Shown piece after piece: positions 10,878 through 14,910 of a stretch of DNA of 21,677 bases; the stretch's first letter is position 1, and every line of letters starts with the position of its first letter. Below the pieces are notes generated by a model. The model was not told where the DNA came from. It saw only the letters and a list, made by a program, of their open reading frames with translations, and did not search any database. Both the position numbers and the translations under genes were made by a program. Origin of the DNA: a virus; IMG/VR virus record IMGVR_UViG_3300011252_000670, positions 1-21,677 of that record; one strand, 5' to 3'.

Positions 10878-11233
10878 TCACCGTCTACATCGACCTCATC
10901 GTCATGGTCGTTCTCAGCAGTATTGCCGCCCGACATGAGCAGATTGAGGTATTCATTGAGGCCTTTCGAATAGCTTTCAACCGGCTCTCGGAACACGGCC
11001 ATTACGAATTTGTCCGCTGCTTTCTGCTTCTCAAAGCTCAAGCCTGCGCCAGCAATGATCAGAACAGCGGTTGTATCGATATTGCGGTTGTTGAAGCCTC
11101 TGTACGCGGGCAGGACTCCATCAAGGCTCTGGTTAATCTTTCGGATCGCATCAAGGGTGGCTTCCAGTTCATATTTTTTGCCGGCGATGGAAACCGTGAT
11201 GGGTTTGGAAGTGGCGACTGATTTATTGCTCAT
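10862..11233 (-). CDS. Tail assembly chaperone (gpG-like)
   Basis: The 123-residue product (ATG at 11233, GAGGAA 6 bp upstream) is helical with a short beta start (KPITVSIAGKKYELEATLDA). It ends in an acidic tail (ENDHDDEVDVDGELGNA). Lying between tail tube and tape measure, it fits the chaperone that coats the tape measure during tail assembly. A longer reading from GTG at 11299 would add 22 residues but lacks a ribosome-binding site. Near the stop the gene carries the slippery heptamer GGGAAAC, so a minor product continues into the -1 frame. The chaperone and its extension are not expected in the virion. Confidence 0.85.
   Translation of the reverse strand: MSNKSVATSKPITVSIAGKKYELEATLDAIRKINQSLDGVLPAYRGFNNRNIDTTAVLIIAGAGLSFEKQKAADKFVMAVFREPVESYSKGLNEYLNLLMSGGNTAENDHDDEVDVDGELGNA
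10868..10874 (-). promoter_or_regulatory. -1 ribosomal frameshift site GGGAAAC
   Basis: On the minus strand the zero frame reads CTG GGA AAC GCC TGA. G GGA AAC fits the X XXY YYZ rule exactly and allows both tRNAs to re-pair on GGG AAA. The -1 frame then continues CGC CTG ACG without a stop for 78 codons. Lambda uses the close relative GGGAAAG in the same gene. The zero-frame stop lies one codon after the slip site. Confidence 0.88.
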
Positions 11234-11262
11234 CTGATATTCCTCGTCGGGAAATGTCGGGT

Positions 11263-11295
11263 GGTGTGGCGAGCCCCCGACAGGCCCGCCACACC
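11263..11295 (-). promoter_or_regulatory. Strong 9-bp hairpin after the tail tube gene
   Basis: GGTGTGGCG (11263-11271) and CGCCACACC (11287-11295) are perfect reverse complements with a 15-nt loop. The hairpin starts 21 bp after the tail tube stop and lies before the chaperone start. There is no T-run on the minus strand, so it probably acts as an mRNA 3'-end stabiliser or attenuator rather than a simple terminator. Confidence 0.55.
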
Positions 11296-11316
11296 TCACT
11301 CAGCTAAGTGTCTGAA

Positions 11317-11778
11317 TTAGGCCGCTGCGACCTCAACAGTGTCGGAGTTGATTGCAAGCTGAACTGCGCGACGGACCATGTTGTTGGCCGTCCCAATGGT
11401 GATTGGTGCGCCCATCACCAGGACGCGCGCATAGAAGGTCGAGCCATTGGTTCCACCGGAATTATCTAGCTCAATTTTGATTGCGTATTGGCTGTCGGAC
11501 GCCGCGGCTGCCTTCAGGTTGGTTTGCCCTGTGTCGCTGTCATCAAAGTCATAGACAACCCGCGGAGTCCCACCTTTCTTCTGGCCCTTCAATGTTTTTG
11601 TACGCCGGTCACCGAGCTGGTCTGTAGTCACGGGATCAAATGTGTCTCCCGCACCTTCAATATCGACGATGTTGCCGACTTCAACATAGGTGAGGGCGGC
11701 GTAGGCGGTTGCATCATTGGCAACGCTGTTGGCCGGGCCGATTGAGAACTTTGCCCCGGCGGCTGTGGTTTCTGTCAT
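11317..11778 (-). CDS. Major tail tube protein
   Basis: A 153-residue beta-rich protein in the standard position before the chaperone pair. Residues 30-60 (LTYVEVGNIVDIEG and the following DPVTTDQLGDRRTKTLKG) and the C-terminal part (MVRRAVQLAINSDTVEV) follow the pattern of siphovirus tail tube proteins, including a loop rich in Asp, Ser and Gly. It should polymerise into hexameric rings around the tape measure and be among the most abundant late products. The start has GGGAG 7 bp upstream. Hairpins flank the gene on both sides, one of them a good terminator, so its expression may be set separately. Confidence 0.85.
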   Translation of the reverse strand: MTETTAAGAKFSIGPANSVANDATAYAALTYVEVGNIVDIEGAGDTFDPVTTDQLGDRRTKTLKGQKKGGTPRVVYDFDDSDTGQTNLKAAAASDSQYAIKIELDNSGGTNGSTFYARVLVMGAPITIGTANNMVRRAVQLAINSDTVEVAAA

Positions 11779-11792
11779 GGATTTCTCCCATC

Positions 11793-11820
11793 AAAAAAGC
11801 CGCCTCACAATGAAGCGGCT
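11793..11820 (-). terminator. Intrinsic terminator or attenuator just before the tail tube gene
   Basis: On the minus strand AGCCGC (revcomp of 11815-11820) pairs with GCGGCT (revcomp of 11798-11803) around an 11-nt loop, then T6 follows. It ends 14 bp before the tail tube start codon and is preceded by a CCCCG-GAG-CGGGG hairpin (11828-11840). No room for a promoter exists between it and the gene, so a normal stop here would silence the tail genes. It must be read through, anti-terminated, or act as a 5' mRNA stabiliser. Confidence 0.65.
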
Positions 11821-11843
11821 GGTTAAACCCCGGAGCGGGGATC

Positions 11844-12230
11844 TCAGTGTTTGATATGGCAGCGGATGGTCACCCTGCCTTTGAATATCTCTTTGTCGAT
11901 GTCGGGCTCCACCCCGCGTGCTGTTACATATGAACGGATCATGGTGCCCGTATTCATCGTCAGGCGGGCTCGATGGAGCGCAGCATAGATCGTCGCCACC
12001 AACTCATTTGCTTGCTTGGTGCCGCGATACCTGCTCCAGACAGTCAGATAGATGAACGTCCTGTCTTTCAAGGATGACAGTTGATCGTCTGGTGTTGCGA
12101 GCATGGTATCCAGTGTCACGTAAGGCATTTCAGCGCTGGCCGGCGCCCGCGTGTACACCTTTACGGGATCAAGCGCTGTGTTGAGCGCCGTGATTATAGC
12201 TGTCACCAGGGCACCGTTCGGATCACTCAT
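11844..12230 (-). CDS. Tail completion protein, DUF3168-like
   Basis: The 128-residue protein has the DUF3168 pattern: an N-terminal helix (ALVTAIITALNTALDPVKVY) followed by PYVTLDTM, a Trp-containing strand (FIYLTVWSRYRGTKQAN) and a helix-strand end. DUF3168 proteins are tail terminator/completion proteins that close the tail tube at the head end. Its ATG overlaps the gp10 stop as ATGA, so the two are coupled. A terminator-like hairpin lies just after its stop. Confidence 0.8.
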   Translation of the reverse strand: MSDPNGALVTAIITALNTALDPVKVYTRAPASAEMPYVTLDTMLATPDDQLSSLKDRTFIYLTVWSRYRGTKQANELVATIYAALHRARLTMNTGTMIRSYVTARGVEPDIDKEIFKGRVTIRCHIKH

Positions 12231-12664
12231 GCCTGTCGAAGACCTTCTGCAATTGCTTCGCGCACCATGCGTTCAACCTCTGCAATTTTGCCGTCCTTTG
12301 CCCTCTCACGGATACGCAGAGCCGGTCGGGCGGGAACCTGCATTGTAAAGCGAGCACCATTCTTTCGATAGGTCACTTCGCCGCCAGCCGTCCCTCCGTC
12401 GAGAAACTTGAACCAGAAATATTTGCTCTCCAGTTCATATGTCGGGAGTCCAATCCGTGCCCGCAGCCCATCCTTCTCATACTCAATAGTGAGTCCATCC
12501 GCTGCATGAGAACCCGGGTTAACAGCGTCTCGCGGTGTGAGGTTCTTCATGTCCTGAAGAACCAAGCCGCTCGCTTCCGGCATCACGTCAACGACCGACT
12601 GGCGCACCTGTTTTGGTATGTTGCTAAACTTCTGAACCGCCTCACGGCCACCGATTACAGGCAT
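12227..12664 (-). CDS. HK97 gp10-like head-tail/tail terminator protein
   Basis: The 145-residue protein (ATG at 12664, GGAG 6 bp upstream; a TTG 30 bp earlier is less likely) contains VVDVMPEASGLVLQDMKNLTP and later YFWFKFLDGGTAGG near residue 85. The first resembles the N-terminal helix of HK97 gp10 proteins and the second their conserved glycine-rich turn. It should sit at the head-tail interface. It is the first morphogenesis gene after the antirepressor insert, and the terminator closing that insert overlaps its upstream region. Confidence 0.8.
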   Translation of the reverse strand: MPVIGGREAVQKFSNIPKQVRQSVVDVMPEASGLVLQDMKNLTPRDAVNPGSHAADGLTIEYEKDGLRARIGLPTYELESKYFWFKFLDGGTAGGEVTYRKNGARFTMQVPARPALRIRERAKDGKIAEVERMVREAIAEGLRQA

Positions 12665-12678
12665 GGTGTGCTCCAAGG

Positions 12679-12704
12679 AAAAGGGCGGCTCCAAGGAACC
12701 GCCC
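12679..12704 (-). terminator. Terminator-like hairpin closing the antirepressor insert
   Basis: GGGCGG (12683-12688) pairs with CCGCCC (12699-12704), with a further TCC/GGA pairing inside the loop. On the minus strand TTTT follows. It lies 20 bp after the antirepressor stop and 15 bp before the gp10 start. The T-run is short, so termination may be partial. Confidence 0.5.
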
Positions 12705-12724
12705 GCTTCAGGGTGTGTAATTGG

Positions 12725-13303
12725 TCAAGCTGATTGCTGATCGACCGTCTTTATCTGATTGTAGCTCAATAGGTCCATTTGTGGCTTACCTTCCATCATC
12801 GCTGGGACAATTGGCAACCCAAGAGTGAACCAAAGCTGGCCTGCAGCGTGATTACCGAAGGTCTGTCGCGCCTCTGTTACCAATCGAACGCGGCTCTGTT
12901 CCGGCTCGGCCTTGTCTTCATCAAGATCAATGCCGCCGGGCAGACCCTTCTCACCCTTGTAGAAGTGCTCAAACAGCACCCCGTAACACTCACGTTGGTA
13001 GAGAATAACCCGCTCTCGGACCTCATCATTCTTGATCCGAGAGCTATCAATCGTGAAAAGCCAGCCGTTAAGGAGCTCAAACTTAAGACACAGAGTATCT
13101 TGAGCGCCGCCACGACCGAAAGGTACACGTATCATACGTGCACCTTCTGAGAGGATCGGGTCTCGATTTACCCGTTCGCGCTGTCCATTCCAGGACAAGC
13201 CCATTCCTTCAACGATGGGCTTCAACGCGATGAAGGTCCCATCATCGTGTTTGAACCCATACAACTCATCGCTTCTGAAATTTACCGTTACTATCTCGCC
13301 CAT
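12725..13303 (-). CDS. ant: P22 Ant-type antirepressor
   Basis: The 192-residue product starts at ATG 13303, with GGAGG 5 bp upstream (an earlier in-frame TTG is unlikely). Residues ~6-110 match the P22_AR_N domain: VNFRSDELYGF, the signature FIALKPIVEGMGLSWNGQ, and LNGWLFTIDSSRI, then RVILYQRECYGVLFEHFYKG. The C-terminal part (VTEARQTFGNHAAGQLWF) resembles other phage antirepressors. In P22, Ant binds the prophage repressor and allows lytic growth, and it must be tightly controlled. Here it sits among virion genes, behind a structured non-coding segment and opposite an RHH gene, which matches an immI-like arrangement. Confidence 0.85.
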   Translation of the reverse strand: MGEIVTVNFRSDELYGFKHDDGTFIALKPIVEGMGLSWNGQRERVNRDPILSEGARMIRVPFGRGGAQDTLCLKFELLNGWLFTIDSSRIKNDEVRERVILYQRECYGVLFEHFYKGEKGLPGGIDLDEDKAEPEQSRVRLVTEARQTFGNHAAGQLWFTLGLPIVPAMMEGKPQMDLLSYNQIKTVDQQSA

Positions 13304-13329
13304 TTGGGCCTCCGTTGTTTGCCCGACAC

Positions 13330-13460
13330 CGCCAAGCGCCGGAAGGCAATTCAAGCCCCGCGCGCCATACGCGGAGGCTCACCATGAGTGAGGCAGCGCA
13401 GCACCCGATTGCCTTGGCGAGTGCGCGCCACCTCACAACCACCCGTTTGGCGCCGGGTGG
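13330..13460 (-). ncRNA. c4: Putative C4-type antisense RNA or structured leader upstream of ant
   Basis: The 183 bp between the 134-residue gene and ant carry no convincing ORF but strong structure. The 8-bp stem 13343-13350/13408-13415 (AAGGCAAT/ATTGCCTT) encloses two hairpins: 13358-13362/13370-13374 (CCGCG/CGCGG) and 13378-13382/13388-13392 (CTCAC/GTGAG). Upstream on the transcript lies a third, 13439-13445/13454-13460 (CCACCCG/CGGGTGG). TTGGCG (plus strand) occurs in that hairpin's loop (13448-13453) and at 13414-13419; both copies can pair with CGCCAA (13330-13335), 27 bp before the ant start. In P1/P7 and many phages a C4 antisense RNA of this kind, located before ant, blocks its expression. 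The structure is seen; the C4 identity is inference. Confidence 0.55.
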
Positions 13461-13486
13461 ATTGCTGTATTCGTCGATTTCAGTTG

Positions 13487-13891
13487 TTAGGCCGCGGCTC
13501 GCTCGCGAGCGGCCAAATAGCCTGCAAGTGCGGCTAGTGCCCCACCCATGTCGCCACAGTGCAGTTCATGACTTGTCACCAGACTGGCAATCCGGTCTGC
13601 TTCAATGTCGTTCTTAGGGCGTCGTTGTTTAAGTTCGGCGACGATCGCATCACCCAAATAGCCAAACTCAGCCGCTAGTGCTTCGGTCAAGTCATTGACC
13701 TTGTCACCAGCCTTGGCATCGGTTGGCACCATGTTCGTCCAGCCGATTTCTTCCATCGTCTGACTTGATCGATACAAAGCACACAGCTCAACGATGCTCA
13801 ATTCTGGCAGCGCAGCAGTTAACGCACTGAAAGGATTAACCCTTTCAGCGTTGATCGACTCGGATTCTTGACGTAAAGCTTGCTCAGCCAT
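13487..13891 (-). CDS. Protein of unknown function, first gene of the ant transcript
   Basis: A 134-residue protein I do not recognise. It is largely helical and acidic: LPELSIVELCALYRSSQTM near 29-47, a helix rich in Glu and Ala (VNDLTEALAAEFGYLGDAIV near 65-84), and ALAALAGYLAARERAAA at the C-terminus. There is no membrane segment or signal peptide. AAAAGGAG precedes the ATG. It stands first in the presumed ant transcript, divergent from the RHH gene, the place that icd or arc occupies in P1 or P22. Whether it controls ant or is an accessory protein cannot be told. Confidence 0.65.
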   Translation of the reverse strand: MAEQALRQESESINAERVNPFSALTAALPELSIVELCALYRSSQTMEEIGWTNMVPTDAKAGDKVNDLTEALAAEFGYLGDAIVAELKQRRPKNDIEADRIASLVTSHELHCGDMGGALAALAGYLAARERAAA

Positions 13892-13931
13892 CGCGCTCTC
13901 CTTTTCAGAGTGTGGCGGTTAGGCCTGCTTT

Positions 13932-13945
13932 GGTGTTGTAGCACC
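13932..13945. promoter_or_regulatory. Candidate operator between RHH and ant-side genes
   Basis: GGTGTTGTAGCACC is an imperfect palindrome (GGTGnTnnAnCACC, five of seven positions paired) in the 89-bp divergent region 13892-13980. It is about 35 bp from the RHH start and 40 bp from the opposite start, where a dimeric RHH repressor could control both promoters. No strong -35/-10 boxes are visible. Confidence 0.3.
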
Positions 13946-13980
13946 TTGGCGGGCCGCTTAATTTGCGCTACCAATAAACC

Positions 13981-14169
13981 ATGGCCCGAGAATTAACACA
14001 ACCAAAAAAACAACGTGGTCGACCGCGAACAGGTGTTGGTGCACCTATTCATGTCCGTATGAAACCTGATCAAGTTGAAGCAGTTGACGCATGGGCTGCG
14101 GAACAACCCGACAACCCCTCACGCGCCGAGGCGATCCGGCGTCTTGTCGAAATGGCGCTTGAACTATAG
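13981..14169 (+). CDS. Ribbon-helix-helix transcription regulator (Arc/Mnt/CopG type)
   Basis: The 62-residue protein has an N-terminal basic arm with an AT-hook-like RGRPR (12-16), then the RHH core: strand PIHVRMKPDQ, helix VEAVDAWAAEQ, turn PDNPSRAEA, helix IRRLVEMALEL. It should bind DNA as a dimer of dimers. It is the only plus-strand gene in the late cluster and is divergent from the 134-residue gene and ant, as Mnt is from arc-ant in P22 immI. Its 3' end meets the lipoprotein gene within 3 bp. A role as repressor of the ant operon is the leading hypothesis. Confidence 0.85.
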   Translation: MARELTQPKKQRGRPRTGVGAPIHVRMKPDQVEAVDAWAAEQPDNPSRAEAIRRLVEMALEL

Positions 14170-14172
14170 AAT

Positions 14173-14541
14173 CTAAGGGCAAAATGAAGAGGATTCAGAA
14201 ATACGTTTGATCCGCTTCCCATTCATCCAATAGTGCACTGTTCTCGATCCGACATAAGCTCCGTATGCATTCTTCGCATTGTATGTCACCGGAATCCGCC
14301 AACCATAAAACTTGCCGTAAATCCCGATATTACATGAGGATTGTACGGCATCACTCACTTGAATCTGAGCACTGTAAGGGTCCTTGAGCTCGCCTTTAAG
14401 GTGAGTCTCAACAACCTCTCGGTAGTTTTCTGGTAACTCGCCGACATCAGCCGCAAGATTAGCTCCGACAAAGTTGCCCCCGCGCTGTGGTGCGCACCCA
14501 AGCAACACCCCAAGGACCATCGCTAGAATGACTAGTCTCAT
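14173..14541 (-). CDS. Accessory lipoprotein (moron candidate)
   Basis: The 122-residue product has a lipoprotein signal peptide with lipobox LLGC (Cys16). The mature part contains THLKGELKDPYSAQIQ and later WRIPVTYNAKNAYGAYVGSR, phrases seen in small envelope proteins of proteobacteria, with single cysteines at two places that could pair. A strong ribosome-binding site (GGAGGAAC) precedes the ATG. It lies between two head-tail genes where no lipoprotein is needed for assembly, so it probably acts on the host envelope, for example in superinfection exclusion or lysogenic conversion. That role is inference. It could also be an accidental insertion. Confidence 0.75.
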   Translation of the reverse strand: MRLVILAMVLGVLLGCAPQRGGNFVGANLAADVGELPENYREVVETHLKGELKDPYSAQIQVSDAVQSSCNIGIYGKFYGWRIPVTYNAKNAYGAYVGSRTVHYWMNGKRIKRISESSSFCP

Positions 14542-14577: not shown

Positions 14578-14910
14578 TCAGCTGTTCACAACCCCTATTT
14601 CAGCTTCGATCATTCGGTACATATCTCTCCCGGCGGCGGGCGCCGTTCGGACGTTCATTTCACTACCGTTCCAAACGAGGGTATCCGTCGTCACAACGCC
14701 CGCCCAATGCCCCTGATTCCGCGCCGTTATACGATAGGTCTGTGTTCCAGCCTGACGATCGGCGATAACCCGCTCTTGGCCTCGAACCGGCTCGATCTTC
14801 GCCCAGACCGTACCGACCGTGACTTCTGTCGGGGCTGAGCCACCCTGCCCGTCATCAACATCGGTTTTGCGCTTGATCATGACGCGCTGGTCCAATTCAC
14901 CGGCATTCAT
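14578..14910 (-). CDS. Head-tail joining protein (HK97 gp7/Phage_H_T_join)
   Basis: The 110-residue product begins MNAGELDQRVMIKRKTDV and continues with VWAKIEPVRGQERVIADRQA, the hallmark of the Phage_H_T_join family (short beta barrel of head completion proteins). The ending YRMIEAEIG also fits. It should attach to the connector ring below the portal. The ATG overlaps the stop of the gp6-like gene as ATGA. The insert of non-structural genes begins 36 bp after its stop. Confidence 0.9.
   Translation of the reverse strand: MNAGELDQRVMIKRKTDVDDGQGGSAPTEVTVGTVWAKIEPVRGQERVIADRQAGTQTYRITARNQGHWAGVVTTDTLVWNGSEMNVRTAPAAGRDMYRMIEAEIGVVNS

Follow-up and report, generated by a model that had tools for sequence, protein, structure and literature searches.

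We consider it probable that the window, a 21,677-nt stretch of viral DNA, carries a self-contained cassette for an antirepressor, placed within the late operon of a temperate phage of alphaproteobacteria. The gene order, a conserved control region, a covarying hairpin and complementary RNA loops were each established by sequence comparison (Table 1). We infer that the RHH protein, bound beside the −10 region, represses both the operon and its own gene, and that the leader prevents translation of the antirepressor gene (ant) by loop-loop contact, either in cis or after release as an antisense RNA, in the manner of C4 in P1. The RHH protein and the leader would jointly keep ant silent in the lysogen; the block would be lifted by induction, or on entry into a cell that lacks the RHH protein and leader RNA, and the Ant then made would inactivate the repressor of the same or another prophage.

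Table 1 Features of the insert and its flanks in the window.
Feature	Position	Strand	Evidence or remark
Tail completion gp17 gene, after gp10-like gene	11844-12230	-	Tail-side flank
gp10-like tail connector gene, downstream flank	12227..12664	-	Position only; without Pfam or PHROG profile match
Terminator-like hairpin after ant	12683..12704	-	9-bp stem then TTTTCC; fold z=-3.7
P22-type antirepressor (ant), 192 aa	12725..13303	-	P22_AR_N plus C-terminal part conserved in alphaproteobacterial orthologs; Pfam, PHROG, orthologs
Structured leader, C4-like anatomy	13304..13486	-	Fold z=-2.8; kissing-loop analysis
Leader hairpin 2, loop with AUUGCCUU	13340..13360	-	Complement of hairpin 1 loop; 8 nt complementary
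Leader hairpin 1, loop with AAGGCAAU and CGCCAAG	13401..13424	-	Loop complementarity
134-aa orphan protein, first operon gene	13487..13891	-	Without relatives
Divergent control region, ~95 bp	13892..13980		Start-to-start spacing 87-97 nt, seven compared loci
R1 hairpin then CUAACC, upstream of operon's first gene	13917..13965	-	R1 model match; covariation in 52 sequences
RHH regulator, 62 aa, divergent from ant operon	13981..14169	+	PHROG 4738, RHH_1, relatives at same position
Lipoprotein-like gene, first gene of insert	14173..14541	-	PHROG 2320, unknown function, E=2.6e-16
Head closure / head completion protein, upstream flank	14578..14910	-	Pfam Phage_HCP E=1.2e-16

The insert and its place in the virion operon

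The minus strand of the window encodes a standard virion operon (small and large terminase, portal, protease, capsid, head-tail adaptor, head closure, tail terminator, major tail protein and tape measure), interrupted between the head closure gene and the next connector gene by an insert of 1.9 kb. The insert holds, in this order, the lipoprotein-like gene, the RHH gene on the plus strand, a divergent gene for a 134-aa protein, the structured leader, the P22_AR_N antirepressor gene and a terminator-like hairpin. No nucleotide relatives of the window were found among phages; an Rfam suhB/mmgR RNA match at 1611-1693 on the minus strand (46.7 bits, exceeding the gathering score) points to an alphaproteobacterial host. 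Two CtrA site matches, with one mismatch, were not above chance and lay outside the insert.

We compared the junction with that of eight virion relatives in which tblastn detected both flanking genes. Head closure and tail completion lie 446-568 nt apart in seven of the eight, which by its length is space for a single gene, versus 2351 nt in the window; the remaining relative (L062) gave 3 nt, probably an atypical match or order. In L054, whose large terminase is 63% identical to that of the window, and in L086, the two junction genes directly overlap. None of the testable virion relatives carried an insert between head closure and gp10, in line with the absence that the preliminary description had envisaged at this junction, and the insert of the window is therefore not fixed. 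The closest virion relative, L054, has an insert of its own (10958-13379), which lies between adaptor and head closure and contains a Rha-like gene along with several unknown ones; the Rha-type gene was identified from sequence and is backed by similarity to L315 and L328.

The interrupted virion gene order and all the parts named in that description were confirmed by Pfam and PHROG matches, fold z-scores and the terminator-like hairpin. Its head-side flank was upheld by the Phage_HCP match, whereas the name HK97 gp10 for the other flank found no profile match and reflects position only. The extent it gave, 12679-14169, encloses parts of the insert, but the insert also includes the lipoprotein-like gene outside that interval. 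As for the proposed self-contained mobile unit, the terminator-like hairpin was recovered (a scan for such hairpins gave 3 found versus 2.3 expected, which is not above chance), but no direct repeats or target-site duplication were found at the insert ends. Different junctions in different phages would fit ordinary mosaic exchange. Late transcription may reach ant, as that description proposed, in a unit that the terminator-like hairpin would close. In an Avibacterium prophage (L213, 7260-7550), ant is immediately preceded by a relative of the lipoprotein gene, so the lipoprotein gene and ant may travel together.

The divergent RHH gene and the R1 hairpin element

The RHH gene of the window matches PHROG 4738, a transcriptional repressor (E=2e-6). 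Against RHH_1 its protein scored 20.1 bits, just below the cut-off of 20.5, which the L178 relative exceeds. The monomer model has two predicted helices, with the strand not formed, and found no significant PDB fold match, the best being MazE antitoxin (E=3.7). RHH relatives are divergent from the ant operon, at near-constant spacing, in the non-identical loci L178, L267, L269, L270, L273, L285 and L287, and the first operon gene behind RHH changes almost every time across L178, L267, L269, L270, L273 and L285. Scanning with the RHH alignment revealed 80 more loci, most with the same control region. Operator palindromes between the divergent genes were enriched in the relatives and poor in the window (5/9 pairs).

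Within the control region lies a hairpin element, R1, for which an alignment of 52 distinct hairpin regions revealed a two-part stem, a conserved loop and a CUAACC tail. The window matched the R1 model at 44.8 bits (E=6e-11), having itself belonged to the training set. Across the 52 sequences, 85.5% of stem cells were paired (60.9% when shuffled), with 137 two-sided changes versus 41 (sd 4.7) and a covariation of 0.586 versus 0.168, values that kinship of the sequences alone can raise above shuffles, structure or not. Kinship as the sole source of this signal is unlikely, because all slide controls were far lower and the pair types are spread. In 24 of the 52 loci, the motif TTGAC is found 34-38 nt ahead of the R1 hairpin, a position consistent with a promoter whose transcript would start near the hairpin.

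At E<=0.001, the R1 model matched 31 of 151 genomes in the Corticibacterium family, 33 of 151 in the Sphingopyxis family, and 1 of 24 genomes that were mostly gamma- and betaproteobacterial. Searches for R1, made without RHH, led to an RHH gene at the element in 9/30 and 8/12 fetched loci. Next to ant in L175, L276 and L280, R1 lies downstream, not upstream. HNH or homing-endonuclease-like genes follow R1 in L375, L382, L383, L395 and L052; at seven loci in rhizobial genomes (L380, L381, L384, L386, L388, L391 and L393) R1 precedes a family of ~350-380-aa proteins, whose L388 member is without a Pfam match. No Rfam 15 family matched R1 in 14 loci. Sub-cut-off matches near the control region to SymR (30 bits, gathering 61) and R1162 antisense were taken as chance matches on the R1 hairpin. 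We found no description of the R1 control module in open-licence papers.

RHH and R1 stand together ahead of unrelated first genes in ~50 phage loci, including HNH endonucleases, Rha- and KilAC-type antirepressors and many orphans, and R1 occurs in ~20% of sampled Rhizobiaceae and Sphingomonadaceae genomes; the control module is therefore more general than ant. This reuse, and the divergent RHH gene that recurs at independently found R1 elements, give an even chance that the insert is an ordinary moron, that is, an accessory transcription unit driven by a regulated promoter of its own, with ant as one of many cargo genes that can replace each other, and with RHH and R1 serving the module rather than lysogeny control. 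Like a moron, the insert is absent from the junction in relatives and has its own predicted promoter and predicted terminator. Antirepressor-type genes (P22_AR_N, Rha, KilAC) nevertheless recur behind the module, and the leader is a second, ant-specific control, both of which argue against the moron reading.

R1 could also act as a DNA element (a cruciform or single-strand site) and not as an RNA hairpin, which we regard as possible but unlikely. In alignment A9, G-U pairs are nearly absent from the R1 stem (5 one-sided versus 137 two-sided changes), which is unusual in RNA and makes a DNA-level role possible; however, R1 has a fixed orientation and a conserved loop and CUAACC tail, and lies directly behind the TTGAC-type promoter, ahead of the start codon.

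The ant leader and the antirepressor gene

All 13 leaders tested, that of the window included, have a two-hairpin form: one hairpin lies ~110-120 nt ahead of ant and the other 33-60 nt ahead of it, and their loops are complementary to each other over 6-8 nt. In the window, the loop pair AAGGCAAU/AUUGCCUU is complementary over 8 nt, reached by none of 60 shuffles, with hairpin 2 at -57 versus the usual ~-40. A second pair, CGCCAAG/CUUGGCG at -116/-33, gave p ~0.06 alone, and the window leader alone at the conserved positions is only suggestive (p ~0.06). Taken singly, most leaders gave no significant result in simple longest-complement tests, cross-locus permutation being the better test. The loop sequences vary between loci, while complementarity holds within each locus: among 21 non-redundant leaders, the complement run was longer within the own locus (mean 6.3 nt) than between loci (4.7 nt), a difference reached by 0 of 20,000 permutations, although this p-value is somewhat weakened because the search windows were positioned after inspection of the leaders.

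The window leader had no match to Rfam C4 (RF01695), even at E up to 5, while the positive control, in L182, did match; no Rfam match was found in the tested alphaproteobacterial ant leaders. RNAalifold failed on the ant leaders, whose stems are not alignable by sequence, so that the sequence-based model R2 is weak and little weight attaches to its not finding the window leader. Anti-SD pairing was seen only in the window leader, and is weak. The two hairpins have complementary loops that differ per locus, which is what C4-type antisense control would predict, and the window leader would act like C4 while standing outside the Rfam C4 family as modelled.

The C4-like leader was found in L178, L267, L269 and L287 but not in L270; the ant orthologs of L175, L265, L272 and L276 are also without this leader type. 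Upstream of ant in other lineages we found Rfam C4 (L182), opposite-strand sar (L167), and sRNA-Xcc1 (RF02221), the last just upstream of P22_AR_N genes in L165, L166, L180, L181 and L183 (Pasteurellaceae, Moraxella), with a second copy after the gene in L183; sRNA-Xcc1 may have a C4-like role. Taking leader and control region together, we lean towards a twofold reading: R1 and the divergent RHH gene would form a portable control module (promoter, structured 5' leader, autoregulator) that is undescribed and that alphaproteobacterial phages reuse for accessory genes of many unrelated kinds, and the ant leaders would make up an undescribed group of C4-like kissing-loop RNAs.

The protein encoded by ant contains a P22_AR_N domain (Pfam E=4.2e-27, 95 bits versus a cut-off of 30.7) and matches PHROG 524, anti-repressor Ant (E=2e-44). 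Its start is likely the ATG at 13303, because orthologs start MGxIVTVNFR. Full-length orthologs with 55-69% identity occur in Corticibacterium, Aquamicrobium, Mesorhizobium, Pararhizobium, Sphingopyxis and Brevundimonas, and also in ~20 viral contigs; they are rare, being present in 4/398, 1/251 and 1/199 genomes of three families (centre genomes counted in).

The window holds no repressor for Ant to target. That the P22_AR_N protein has no antirepressor role in its own phage, and acts instead on the host or on superinfecting phages, is rather unlikely. The C-terminal part usual in P22 Ant is absent from the window protein, which has only the N-terminal domain in common with it and a group-specific C-terminal part, and P22 Ant has itself been reported to act on superinfecting phage (PMC11016777), both of which favour such a target; the site behind RHH and leader controls, however, matches that of antirepressor genes in many phages. 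The 134-aa protein had no relatives in Pfam, PHROG, phages, viral contigs or genomes, and that its gene and RHH form a toxin-antitoxin pair unrelated to ant is very improbable: RHH antitoxins are common and the best, non-significant fold match is to the MazE antitoxin, but the two genes are divergent and not one operon, and in relatives RHH is kept while the first gene is wholly replaced.

Relation to known immunity cassettes

The cassette of the window is a variant of the immI type, probably built on a widespread and seemingly undescribed alphaproteobacterial control module. P22 immI likewise combines an RHH repressor divergent from the ant operon with a P22_AR_N antirepressor, and sits within the late operon, between virion genes (PMC8022706); the late-operon site of such a cassette is therefore not new. 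The window differs from P22 in having one RHH gene and an orphan gene before ant, in its kissing-loop leader where P22 immI uses the sar antisense RNA, and in the ant C-terminus. No second RHH (Arc) was found in the window ant operon, the gene upstream of ant being without an RHH match in Pfam or PHROG. In Pararhizobium (L175, 7778-7987), a gene for an Arc-like small protein immediately precedes ant, nearer to the P22 arc-ant order.

In P1/P7 C4-ant (RF01695), as in the window, a leader hairpin loop is complementary to a target shortly before the ant start; in the window this target is itself a hairpin loop. Salmonella phage Oslo (ES18-like) has an Arc-like regulator divergent from arc-ant, and phage CUS-3 has mnt divergent from ant. 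The Oslo Arc/Arc/ant cassette lies between the major tail protein and tape measure genes, a place corresponding to that of the L178, L273 and L269 cassettes, which stand, where the context is readable, between the major tail/tail chaperone genes and the tape measure and not, as in the window, between head closure and gp10. Oslo differs from the window in host lineage, in leader and in having two Arc-like genes. Also close to the window in make-up are the alphaproteobacterial prophages L178, L267, L269, L270, L273 and L287, which have the RHH gene, the R1 control region, a variable first gene and an ant ortholog.

Of the likeness to immI drawn in the preliminary description, the RHH gene facing the ant operon was borne out, in independent alphaproteobacterial phages as well as in Oslo and CUS-3. 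Its C4-like RNA held for loop-loop complementarity, but not for membership of the Rfam family. The unit of RHH gene, promoter and hairpin is not specific to ant, as it precedes many other genes.

These results extend immI-type secondary immunity beyond the enteric phages in which it is mainly known, to phages of alphaproteobacteria, where similar cassettes occupy different late-operon junctions. The common regulatory module may explain how phages control newly acquired genes within a highly expressed operon, and concrete sequences are now available for testing such module-based control of acquired genes.
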